Shown here in pieces: positions 1 to 6,503 of a DNA stretch of 64,000 nt (within the stretch, counting starts at the first letter, position 1; each line of letters opens with the position of its first letter). The notes beneath the pieces are model-generated. The model saw nothing but the letters and a program-made list of their open reading frames with translations. It did no database searches and had not been told where the DNA came from. The position numbers and the translations under genes were made by a program. Location of the stretch: positions 1-64,000 of the forward strand of contig NZ_JAPSLI010000001.1 in assembly GCF_031180975.1 (NCBI RefSeq). The letters are read 5' to 3'. Origin of the DNA: Microbacterium sp. (lineage in GTDB: Bacteria > Actinomycetota > Actinomycetes > Actinomycetales > Microbacteriaceae).

Positions 1-91
1 GCAGCTGGTCCGCGACGAACTGGTCGGCGAAGCGCCCGGGGAAGGTCATGAGGTGGTCGGTGGCGATGGAGCCGGTGACTGCGATGCGCAC
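1..91 (-). CDS. PfkB-family carbohydrate kinase, N-terminal fragment
   Basis: Only the first 30 codons are in the window; the gene runs off the left edge. The start is GTG at 91, with AGGAG about 10 nt upstream (102–106). The translation opens with the beta strand and glycine turn RIAVTGSIATDHLMTFPG, the usual N-terminus of ribokinase/PfkB-type sugar or nucleoside kinases. These enzymes phosphorylate a sugar hydroxyl using ATP. The substrate cannot be told from this fragment. It belongs to the Streptomyces-like segment left of the poly-C run. Confidence 0.7.
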   Translation of the reverse strand, partial: MRIAVTGSIATDHLMTFPGRFADQFVADQL

Positions 92-2524: not shown

Positions 2525-2559
2525 GCCCGGGCGCGGGCCCCGCGGACATGCCGGAGGCG

Positions 2560-2584
2560 GCGGCCCCCCATCGGGGGGGGCCGC
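2560..2584 (+). terminator. GC hairpin after the membrane-protein gene
   Basis: GCGGCCCCCC at 2560–2569 pairs with GGGGGGCCGC at 2575–2584 across a 5-nt loop, 35 nt after the stop codon at 2522–2524. There is no U-tract, which is common for Streptomyces terminators. Confidence 0.6.
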
Positions 2585-2632
2585 GGCTGCGCCCTCACCA
2601 ACCCCTGGGCCGGCCTCGGCCCCGGGGTGCCG

Positions 2633-2654
2633 CCCCCCCCCCCCCCCCCCCCCC
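2633..2654. other. 22-nt poly-C run marking a suspected chimeric junction
   Basis: Twenty-two uninterrupted C residues separate the Streptomyces-like segment from Microbacteriaceae-like sequence. Nothing comparable occurs elsewhere in the window. The 55 nt to the right (2655–2709) hold no gene that I can assign. The exact edge of the right-hand genome may lie anywhere from 2655 to about 2740, because the C-terminus of the next gene is also slightly unusual. Confidence 0.85.
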
Positions 2655-2709
2655 ACATCGCCTGACCGCCGACGGACTCAGCGCGGCACAGAGATCGCTT
2701 TGGGCAAGA

Positions 2710-3387
2710 TCACGGACACCGTGCCGAGCGGCCCTGCGCCGTCTCCTCGGTGAAGTCCGCGACCAGCGGGGCGAGCGCGCTCCCCACCTCGTCGGCGGGG
2801 AGCTTGCGGCCCTTCACCTCGAACGAGTGGCCGCCGCCGTCGATCCAGGCGATCCGGGCATCCTGACAGGACGCCACTGCCTCCTCGAGCTGCGACAGCG
2901 GCTGAACGAAAGGATCGTTCGTGCCCTCCACGAACAGCTGAGGAGGCGCCACCGCCGGCAGGTGCTCCACACGCGGCTTCTCGGGCCTGCCGGGCGGATG
3001 CAGCGGATAGCCGAGGTAGACGAGCCCGTCCACCTGCAGCCCCTCCGCCACCGCCATCGACGCCATGCGCCCGCCGTACGACTTGCCGCACGCCCACACG
3101 CGCGCGCCGGGAGCCTGGACCCGCGCCCATTCGACCACCGCGTTCCAGGTGAGGATCGCGTGCGCAGCCGGGCCCGGCATCCGCCGCCCCGCCTCCACGT
3201 AGGGGAAGTTGAAGCGCAGCGTGGCGAGGTCCCGCTCGCGCAACCCGGCGGCGAACCCGCGGAGGAACGGATGGTCCATCCCGGCCCCGGCGCCGTGCGC
3301 GATGGCGATGACGCCGCGTGATCCGTCCACCGGCTCCCACGCCAGCGACACCGAAACGGGACCGCTCGGCAGTGCCACCTCGAGCAT
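2710..3387 (-). CDS. alpha/beta hydrolase, dienelactone-hydrolase/Tex30-like
   Basis: 225 residues from ATG 3387. Visible catalytic elements are an oxyanion strand AHGAGAG (about 30–36), the nucleophile elbow GKSYGG with Ser103, an acid at Asp158 (EGTNDPF) and His187 (GGGHSFE). This matches the short cytoplasmic KANL3/Tex30-type hydrolases, whose natural substrates are mostly unknown. The start overlaps the stop of the upstream gene as TGATG, so translation is probably coupled; GTG at 3390 is an alternative start. It is the last gene of a three-gene minus-strand operon. The last ~9 residues (AQGRSARCP) look atypical and lie close to the suspected junction, so the true C-terminus may differ. 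Confidence 0.8.
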   Translation of the reverse strand: MLEVALPSGPVSVSLAWEPVDGSRGVIAIAHGAGAGMDHPFLRGFAAGLRERDLATLRFNFPYVEAGRRMPGPAAHAILTWNAVVEWARVQAPGARVWACGKSYGGRMASMAVAEGLQVDGLVYLGYPLHPPGRPEKPRVEHLPAVAPPQLFVEGTNDPFVQPLSQLEEAVASCQDARIAWIDGGGHSFEVKGRKLPADEVGSALAPLVADFTEETAQGRSARCP

Positions 3388-3794
3388 CACGTCGCCGACC
3401 TCCCGAACGGAATCCGCACGACCTCACCGCGCCGAGCACGAAGCGTCCCGACGATCACCACCACCAGGTGCACGACGCACACCACCACGTACAGCGTCAT
3501 CGGGATGGCGACCGGAAAGAGTCCGCGCGGCTGCGGCGGCATCCACAGCAGGGCGACAGCGATGCCGAGCTGCAGCACCAGCAATCCGGTGGAGACGAGA
3601 AGGAAAAAGGTGCCCCACCGCTTCGCCGAGCGAGCGTTCGCGGCCGCGAGCGGCCCCTGACGAGAGAGCGAGCCGTAGGCGGCGACCATCCCGCCACCCG
3701 CCGCCAAGGGACCCAGCAGCGGGATGGGCAGCAGCACGAGTAGCCCGAGAGCCCACGCCGAGGCGCCCGTGGCCGGTCGCGCCGACTGCGTCAT
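3387..3794 (-). CDS. small membrane protein (DUF4870-like)
   Basis: 135 residues with about four hydrophobic segments (about 12–30, 33–50, 62–85 and 95–120). They are joined by a basic loop containing NARSAKRW. The layout resembles the DUF4870/Tic20-like small membrane proteins, but I cannot confirm the family by eye. Its ATG overlaps the stop of the upstream stress-protein gene by 4 nt, and its own stop overlaps the hydrolase start. The three genes are therefore probably co-translated. Confidence 0.7.
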   Translation of the reverse strand: MTQSARPATGASAWALGLLVLLPIPLLGPLAAGGGMVAAYGSLSRQGPLAAANARSAKRWGTFFLLVSTGLLVLQLGIAVALLWMPPQPRGLFPVAIPMTLYVVVCVVHLVVVIVGTLRARRGEVVRIPFGRSAT

Positions 3795-4594
3795 CGCCCG
3801 GTGGACGGCTCGCCGCCGGAGGATCCACCGGGCTCGCCGCCCGGCACGTCTCCACCGGGCCCGCCCTGACCAGGCACGTCGCCACCCGGGGCGGAAGCGT
3901 CACCGACCTGCACCCCACCGACTTCGCCCTCGGGCACCTCCCCCGGCACGGGGGAACCGGCCCGCTCGGGAGCCGGCGGGGCGGGCTGCGGCGGCGGCAC
4001 CACGTGCGGCTGATGCGGCGTCCCACCGGCAGCGGCTCCTGTCGCCGCCCCCTGACCACCGCCGGGCGTGATCCGCTCGCCGTACTTCGGCGGCTCGCTG
4101 AGATCCACCGGCGGCTTCGGCGTCTCGACCCGCTGCGGCCCCAGCACCTGGCGCGCCTTCGCCAGCGACCGCGGCTGCACGCGCACCTCATAGTGATCGG
4201 CGACCATCTGCGTGATGCTGGCGAAATCGCGGCGCCGGCGCACGATGGCGTAGGTCACCAGGCTCATGATCATTCCCAGCGCGACGCCGATGAAGACGAA
4301 CCCGAGGAACAGCGACACCGGCGCGTCGGGGGTGCCGAACAGCATCCACGCCGACAGGAAGAGTCCGATCAGCACGCCGTTGATCGCACCCGATCGCGCG
4401 GCCGCCGCGTATCCGAGGCGACCCGTCACCCGCTCGACCGTGCGCACGCCCTCGCCGACGATCACGATGTCGCGCGCGGGCACCTCCCCCGCGATCAGCT
4501 TCGAGACGATCTGCTGCGCCCCCTCGTACTCACGGGACGAGGCGACCACCTCGCCGATGTCGGTGCCGTTCGCCGGACGATTCAGCATGCTCAT
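3791..4594 (-). CDS. general stress protein 17M (YflT)-like membrane protein
   Basis: 267 residues from ATG 4594. This start is preferred to an upstream extension that would overlap the divergent gene. Residues about 14–55 form a YflT-like domain (REYEGAQQIVSKL, followed by the DIVIVGEG strand). Two membrane helices follow at about 68–85 and 92–115. A Pro/Gly-rich, probably disordered tail starts at about 165 and ends in acidic Gly-rich repeats. The family is linked to general stress responses; its biochemical role is unknown. It is the first gene of the three-gene operon and is divergent from the MgtE-N gene. Confidence 0.75.
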   Translation of the reverse strand: MSMLNRPANGTDIGEVVASSREYEGAQQIVSKLIAGEVPARDIVIVGEGVRTVERVTGRLGYAAAARSGAINGVLIGLFLSAWMLFGTPDAPVSLFLGFVFIGVALGMIMSLVTYAIVRRRRDFASITQMVADHYEVRVQPRSLAKARQVLGPQRVETPKPPVDLSEPPKYGERITPGGGQGAATGAAAGGTPHQPHVVPPPQPAPPAPERAGSPVPGEVPEGEVGGVQVGDASAPGGDVPGQGGPGGDVPGGEPGGSSGGEPSTGR

Positions 4595-4680
4595 CCGGCC
4601 ATTCTTCCACGCCGCCTGCAATCGCCGCCCTGTGGCGACATCCCGGCTGCCCGCCCCGGCTCGCGGACTACGCTGGACAG

Positions 4681-5943
4681 GTGAGCACACAACGGGTTTT
4701 CGTCGCGCGCCTGGCCGGGTGCGCCGTCTTCGACCCCGTGGGCGACCGGCTCGGCAAGGTCCGTGACGTCGTCATCGTGTACCGAAGTACGGCAGCGCCC
4801 CGCGTGATCGGGCTCGTCGTGGAGATTCCCGGTCGTCGCCAGGTGTTCCTCTCCATCGGCCGCGTCACCTCGATCCGGGCCGGCCAGGTCATCACCACCG
4901 GCCTCATCAACGTGCGCCGCTTCCAGCCCCGCCCCGGCGAGATGCGCGTGCTCGCCGAGTACGTCGGCCGCCGTGTGCGACTCGTGGACGGCAGCGGCAC
5001 CGCCGTCGTCGAGGACGTCGCCATCGAGCAGGACCGGCACGGCGAATGGGCCATCAGCCAGCTGTTCCTGCGCAAGGCGAAGACCAGCGCGTCGCCGTTC
5101 GCGAAAGGTCCCACCACGTTCGCGTCGTGGAACGAGGTGGCCGAGCTGCGCCAGCCCGGTGAGTCCCAGTCGGCCGAGCAGCTCATCGCCAGCTATTCCG
5201 AACTGCACGCCGCCGACCTCGCCACGACACTGCTCGACCTGCCCCAGCAGCGCATGATCGAGGTCGCCGAAGAGCTGCCGGACGAGCGCCTCGCCGACGC
5301 GCTCGAGGAGATGCCGGAGGACGAGCAGGTGCACATCCTCGACCGGCTGGGAGACGAGCGCGCCGCGGACATCCTCGACCAGATGGAACCCGACGACGCC
5401 GCCGACCTGCTCGCGCAGCTGCCGCCGAAGCGACTGGAGCAGCTGCTCGCGCTGATGGACCCCGAGGAGGCGGAGGACGTCAGGATGCTGCTGCGCTATG
5501 GCGCGGACACCGCGGGCGGCCTGATGACGCCCGAGCCCATCATCCTCTCCGCCGACGCCACCGTCGCCGAGGCGCTCGCAGTGATCCGCCGCCACGAACT
5601 GCACCCGGCCCTCGCCGCCGCCGTGTTCGTGACGCTCCCGCCGTTCGAGACGCCCACCGGGCGCCTTCTCGGCGTCGTGCACTTCCAGCGGATGCTGCGC
5701 TACCCGCCGCACGAACGGCTCGGCGCCATCCTCGACGACACCCTCGAACCGGTGTCGGTCACCGCGTCGGCCGCCGAGGTCGCCCGTCTGCTCGCCAGCT
5801 ACGACCTGGTGTCGCTGCCCGTCATCGACTCCGCGCACCGCCTGGTCGGTGCGGTGAGCGTGGACGACGTGCTCGACTACCTGCTCCCCGGCGACTGGCG
5901 CACGCACGACGCCGACGAGACCGAGAGCGGGGCGGCGCGATGA
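4681..5943 (+). CDS. PRC-barrel / MgtE N-domain / CBS-domain protein
   Basis: 420 residues from GTG 4681. The N-terminal ~135 residues look like tandem PRC-barrel strands. Residues about 165–285 are the helical superhelix of the MgtE N-terminal domain (LLAQLPPKRLEQLLALMDPEEAEDV). Residues about 285–400 are a paired CBS domain (GGLMTPEPIIL… SLPVIDSAHRLVGAVSVDDVLDYL). There is no membrane channel, so it is not a transporter itself. It is probably a cytosolic Mg2+/nucleotide-sensing relative of MgtE. Its stop overlaps the next start as ATGA. The tatB/mrp/MgtE-N neighbourhood is conserved in Actinobacteria, including mycobacteria. Confidence 0.85.
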   Translation: MSTQRVFVARLAGCAVFDPVGDRLGKVRDVVIVYRSTAAPRVIGLVVEIPGRRQVFLSIGRVTSIRAGQVITTGLINVRRFQPRPGEMRVLAEYVGRRVRLVDGSGTAVVEDVAIEQDRHGEWAISQLFLRKAKTSASPFAKGPTTFASWNEVAELRQPGESQSAEQLIASYSELHAADLATTLLDLPQQRMIEVAEELPDERLADALEEMPEDEQVHILDRLGDERAADILDQMEPDDAADLLAQLPPKRLEQLLALMDPEEAEDVRMLLRYGADTAGGLMTPEPIILSADATVAEALAVIRRHELHPALAAAVFVTLPPFETPTGRLLGVVHFQRMLRYPPHERLGAILDDTLEPVSVTASAAEVARLLASYDLVSLPVIDSAHRLVGAVSVDDVLDYLLPGDWRTHDADETESGAAR

Positions 5944-6503
5944 TGGCCCGGTCCCCTCGCCTCGACACTCCGCTCGGGCGCGGCAGTGCCACCCGCGGCG
6001 CGGCGCCCTCGCGCGACCGTTTCGGACGCTTCACGGAGTGGGTCGCCCGCGCCATGGGCACTCCCGCGTTCCTGCTGCTGCTCACCCTGTTCTGCGCGGC
6101 CTGGATCGCGTGGAACACCCTCATGCCGAAGCACCTGCGCTTCGACGATGCCGCCCTCGGCTTCACCGCGCTCACCCTGATGCTGTCGCTGCAGGCGTCG
6201 TACGCCGCGCCGCTGATCCTGCTCGCGCAGAACCGGCAGGACGACCGCGACCGCGTGCAGATCGAGCAGGACCGCCAGCGCGCCGAACGCAACCTGGCGG
6301 ACACCGAATACCTCGCCCGCGAGATCGTGGCGCTGCGCCTGGCCCTCGACGAGCGCACCGCGCAGACCGTCACCAGAGACGTGCTGCGGCAGGAGCTGAA
6401 GTCGCTGCTCGCCGACCTGGAGCACTCGGACGGCGCCCGGCCGGCCGACCGCGATCCGGCGGATTCCGCGGCCCGCCGTGACGACGACGAGCGGCGACGA
6501 TGA
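5940..6503 (+). CDS. DUF1003 membrane protein
   Basis: 187 residues. A basic N-terminus is followed by two membrane helices (about 42–60 and 77–96) around the DUF1003 signature SLQASYAAPLILLAQNRQDDRDR. A charged cytoplasmic coiled-coil follows (about 105–160). Function is unknown; the family often lies beside MgtE-N genes. It overlaps both neighbours by ATGA, so MgtE-N, DUF1003 and mrp look like a translationally coupled operon. Confidence 0.85.
   Translation: MMARSPRLDTPLGRGSATRGAAPSRDRFGRFTEWVARAMGTPAFLLLLTLFCAAWIAWNTLMPKHLRFDDAALGFTALTLMLSLQASYAAPLILLAQNRQDDRDRVQIEQDRQRAERNLADTEYLAREIVALRLALDERTAQTVTRDVLRQELKSLLADLEHSDGARPADRDPADSAARRDDDERRR

Follow-up and report, generated by a model that had tools for sequence, protein, structure and literature searches.

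A run of 22 cytosines marks a probable assembly join between stray Streptomyces DNA and a host contig

Introduction

In two-colour sequencing chemistry, dark cycles are called as G. Poly-G tails, composed of no-call bases, are a reported artefact of short reads, as set out in the sections of PMC12863550 drawn on here. Inverted repeats and GGC motifs have also been reported as sites of sequencing bias (PMC4872057), and in the parts of that study concerned with such bias, secondary structure did not account for the coverage dip observed there. At the level of the assembly, the portion of the GUNC paper that deals with contamination (PMC8201837) describes chimeric contigs that arise through misassembly, with culture media, kits or reagents and index hopping as sources of contamination.

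The locus described here joins two kinds of DNA through a run of C. The stretch of DNA analysed (hereafter the window; 64,000 bases) comprises bases 1-64000 of contig C13 (670,021 bases) in a draft genome of 17 contigs and 3.23 Mb, whose host side we take to be Microbacterium. Because the window starts at C13 base 1, the suspect DNA forms a contig tip. The features of the left end of the window, in window coordinates, are as follows.

1-2587, no strand assigned: foreign Streptomyces DNA at the C13 tip, 99.27% identical to L027:2575-5161 (Streptomyces MAG RH52_bin.044)
1-91, minus strand: cut pfkB-type kinase gene (PfkB found on the full L027 gene)
221-430: small open reading frame in the Streptomyces segment
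620-2524, plus strand: gene for a 634-aa protein
2548-2587, plus strand: terminator hairpin at which the Streptomyces match breaks (loop, then a G8 run in place of a clean falling arm)
2588-2632, plus strand: apparent degraded copy or close homologue of the tip of contig C3 (DUF222-type gene end)
2633-2654, plus strand: run of 22 C, probably artefactual filler (poly-G when viewed from the hydrolase side)
2655-6000, no strand assigned: native host DNA, continuing through the rest of the window (matches in genus genomes; tetranucleotides)
2710-3390, minus strand: alpha/beta hydrolase gene, apparently intact (Abhydrolase_11, E 1.2e-43)

Results

Two genera in one contig

The alignment of bases 1-2587 to Streptomyces DNA runs over 2593 columns with 7 mismatches and two 6-base indels, and intergenic DNA also matches. 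No Pfam family was found for the 634-aa protein, which has at least 147 encoded relatives (the best 80 of 147 being 79 from Streptomyces and one from Kitasatospora). An earlier note on this DNA had assigned the first 2.6 kb to Streptomyces; the origin is borne out by this match, while the extent has to be trimmed, as homology stops at about 2574-2587, before the poly-C. When the 10-kb Streptomyces locus was searched in the host's own genome, the remainder of it was absent at near identity: there were ten matches, those other than the segment itself being four homologous stretches (70-78%) and five short ones (25-49 bases). Base composition agrees with a foreign origin. GC content is 76.9% in bases 1-2632 vs a native mean of 70.8% and maximum of 74.2% (103 same-size segments), and by tetranucleotides none of these 103 native segments was as Streptomyces-like as bases 1-2632; the native segments were drawn, after removal of those with ≥50 N, from the genome stretches examined, which also served as the native reference. 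The change in base composition described in the earlier note is present. By sequence comparison, bases 1-2587 are almost certainly stray Streptomyces DNA, present through an error in the data and not through gene transfer in nature.

To the right of the poly-C the DNA is of host type, as had been proposed: among 149 genomes of the host genus (own genome counted), 145 had a match to bases 2655-6000, so that each side, searched alone, returned its own genus. Among the matches listed for this interval most span about 4.0 kb onward, with at least eight relatives matching on the hydrolase side. Seven of the seven relatives compared align with the hydrolase at 74-79% identity, the alignments reaching residue 216-226 of 226, and the gene therefore looks complete; the warning that its end was compromised by the junction did not hold, as the end is not visibly damaged.

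The poly-C run and the sequence before it

The run of exactly 22 C claimed to separate the two sides was located at 2633-2654. A first-order Markov model predicts 5e-8 C runs of ≥22 per 64 kb; after this run, the longest C run in the window has 6 bases, and the longest G run has 8 (2575-2582, inside the junction). The run had been called a homopolymer seen nowhere else, which is true of the window but not of the genome, where C runs of ≥15 occur in two other clusters (C7:114318-114489 and C13:115467-115626, each adjoining an N10 gap) and C runs of 12 at two further places, the tip of contig C3 and C12:91262.

The 45 bases before the window's run of C point to contig C3. In a search of the host's own genome with bases 1-2632, window 2561-2622 matched C3:23-84 on the minus strand (77%, E 7.5e-6). 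C3 starts with 12 G, equivalent to poly-C in window orientation, and over window 2588-2632 the two sequences are identical at 35 of 45 positions, with no gaps, both continuing into CCGCCCCCC. At five of the ten differing positions the window has G or C where C3 has A or T, and at none is it the other way round. That these 45 bases belong to the Streptomyces DNA was rejected, as they are not found in the continuation of the MAG. Against the plasmid collection, window 2561-2720 gave nine weak partial matches (E 0.4; five Streptomyces, two Shinella and two Azospirillum). From these comparisons, bases 2588-2632 appear to resemble host DNA, as a degraded copy or close homologue of the C3 tip; as the C3 match is 77%, their source could also be a paralogue or the DNA of a second strain.

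On the Streptomyces side the match breaks inside a terminator. The rising arm of the terminator of the 634-aa gene is present within 1-2587, and the window's falling arm carries T-to-G and C-to-G changes and the G8 run at 2575-2582 before the break. The intact L027 hairpin folds at -74 kcal/mol (81 bases, RNA parameters).

Contig C3 as the probable left neighbour

The C3 tip codes for the C-terminal end of a protein of DUF222 type, of which the genome has three paralogues (the DUF222 match is on the C11 paralogue); the 42-residue C3-tip peptide itself matched no Pfam family. In relatives G033, G036 and G076, a DUF222-type C-terminus lies convergent with the hydrolase, 173-388 bases from its alignment, and in G042 it lies 1.9 kb from the hydrolase. 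In four relatives (G092, G107, G036 and G069), the hydrolase is followed on this side by further genes of C3, among them APH family, M24 peptidase and Exo_endo_phos genes. The distance between the hydrolase alignment and the start of these genes is 48 bases in G069, a single-contig genome, and 4.9 kb in G107; on this side, G036 showed no relative of the APH-type gene. The C3 sequence match, together with synteny in four relatives, leads us to conclude that C3, reverse-complemented, most probably precedes window base 2655 in the real chromosome as its true left neighbour, in which case the Streptomyces piece has been grafted in its place. As a separate observation, the DUF222-type gene at the C3 tip (L013:1-130) is missing the HNH-like stretch of its paralogues and changes frame there; either a genuine pseudogene or a further misassembly may lie behind this.

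Other poly-C and poly-G scars

Poly-C/poly-G scars occur at several places in this assembly, the window's poly-C among them. The two other clusters are as follows.

G000:C7:114304-114489 (L009:10305-10490): poly-C/poly-G cluster between convergent genes for a deformylase and an AMP-binding enzyme
G000:C13:115467-115626 (L010:10468-10627): poly-C/poly-G cluster between convergent glyoxalase-type and histidyl-tRNA synthetase-type genes

The flanks of the C7 cluster lie 59-123 bases apart in all 11 relatives searched. Those of the C13 cluster lie 87-1140 bases apart in five of 11, the other six having the right flank only among the matches listed. Both clusters are apparently unfilled assembly gaps. 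Read in the sequencing direction, the host side of the junction and both sides of the C7 cluster run into poly-G. The left side of C13:115467 runs into C, contrary to what would be expected of a simple poly-G failure, and this is evidence against it. The C13 poly-C is also adjoined by a long palindromic intergenic repeat (C13:115632-115701; L010:10633-10702) that folds into a near-perfect hairpin and occurs at no fewer than 19 other places in the same genome, with further occurrences in G076 and G069.

Contig tips

Two of the 34 contig tips (those of C9) are all N, and 28 of the 32 readable tips have at least one 40-mer in common with another tip. The four unpaired tips are C3-5' (the end that matches the junction), C13-5' and both ends of C15 (compared with the tips of other contigs). 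An unpaired tip as a feature special to C3 and C13 was accordingly rejected, and since C15 also lacks partner tips, an unpaired tip alone is weak proof. C15 (L024, 5492 bases) had matches at E <1e-50 in 10 of the remaining 148 genus genomes, at best with 74% identity over about 1.2 kb, and its composition is not Streptomyces-like. Four of five measured tip pairs have exactly 127 bases in common from the first base, which we interpret as the mark of a de Bruijn assembler run at k=127; in the remaining pair, C1/C4, 135 bases are common, arranged differently. Twelve of the 32 readable tips form two groups of six, with a common end sequence within each group, as if both ends of one multi-copy element had broken the assembly.

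Discussion

Origin of the junction

The junction is best explained as an assembly chimera, to which we give a probability of about 0.96. The join is strongly supported because each side finds its own genus and because C3 has been identified, by match and synteny, as the neighbour displaced from the host side; the earlier note's reading of an assembly join rather than a natural transfer is upheld on the same grounds. Foreign origin, the C3 match, synteny, scars elsewhere and the 127-base tip overlaps are the observed parts of this explanation, from which the following course of events may be reconstructed. In the real chromosome, the unread stretch from C3 to base 2655 would hold the 3' end of the DUF222-type gene, convergent with the hydrolase. 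Host reads going leftward from the hydrolase may decay into poly-G (poly-C on the plus strand) and then into error-rich sequence like that of the C3 tip, while Streptomyces, presumably a trace contaminant, would contribute reads that decay inside their own terminator hairpin. Against a simple form of this course, no strong hairpin was seen beside the poly-C on the host side. The G-inflated read ends of host and contaminant could then grow alike around the common core CCCATC, and because they are alike, a de Bruijn assembler might walk from host to contaminant along this presumed path, leaving the C3 end dangling.

Among the alternatives, the one that survives best, though improbable, is that the poly-C is genuine, forming the proline-rich end of the host DUF222-type gene, and that the Streptomyces part alone is false. 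C3 too ends in poly-C, with an open frame terminating DPPVPPPPP, which would suit such a gene end; however, all eight homologues that were read to the stop (three paralogues and five relatives) have an RF-type tail and no poly-proline, and the remaining clusters at N10 gaps are intergenic. Still less probable is a join that arose in the laboratory, before assembly, whether through homopolymer tailing or as a chimeric library fragment. Poly-C is a classical cloning tail, and one chimeric molecule could connect both sides. Against this stand the other poly-C/poly-G clusters, which lie at N10 gaps within native DNA; the poly-C end of C3, where foreign DNA was not seen; and the degraded, C3-like bases lying between Streptomyces and host DNA, which would be unexpected for a tail. 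The scars elsewhere and the C3-like bases at the join likewise speak against the cloning tail that the earlier note had entertained. Hardly credible is a recent natural transfer in which the host acquired at least 2.6 kb of Streptomyces DNA beside the hydrolase, with the poly-C left as a scar of repair. The deposited contig does carry the segment without interruption, but relatives have DNA of C3 type as the left neighbour, and such DNA is also present in this assembly and ends in poly-C, the break falls inside a hairpin with G-inflated errors, bases 1-2632 had no megablast match in the plasmid or phage collections, and the segment runs off the contig tip with host DNA on one side only and no return to host DNA seen. 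Similarly far-fetched is a very recent capture in which the host took in chromosomal DNA of Streptomyces, the poly-C being the scar of end joining and C3 being displaced by the insertion. The genuine poly-proline tract, bench tailing and natural transfer were all rejected on the evidence given for each.

Consequences

With the assembly chimera as the preferred reading, the junction is likely an ordinary artefact for which C3 can be named as the true neighbour. A false claim of gene transfer is averted, and bases 1-2654 leave the host's gene list; we recommend that 1-2587 be deleted from the host genome and that 2588-2654 be regarded as unreliable. Long C or G runs in short-read drafts can flag unfilled gaps and foreign grafts, and degraded sequence beside such a run may reveal the displaced true neighbour.

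Comparison with known systems

The runs described here share with short-read poly-G tails a homopolymer of G (C on the opposite strand), which in such tails stands at base calls without signal (PMC12863550) and may do so here. They differ in persisting inside an assembly, and that paper, in its sections on such tails, links them to short inserts rather than to hairpins. The contig itself is like the chimeric contigs treated in the corresponding part of the GUNC paper (PMC8201837), in which fragments of different organisms are brought together in one contig. Unlike the cases in that part of the paper, the present one allows C3 to be identified as the displaced neighbour, and the degraded sequence of the junction to be located.
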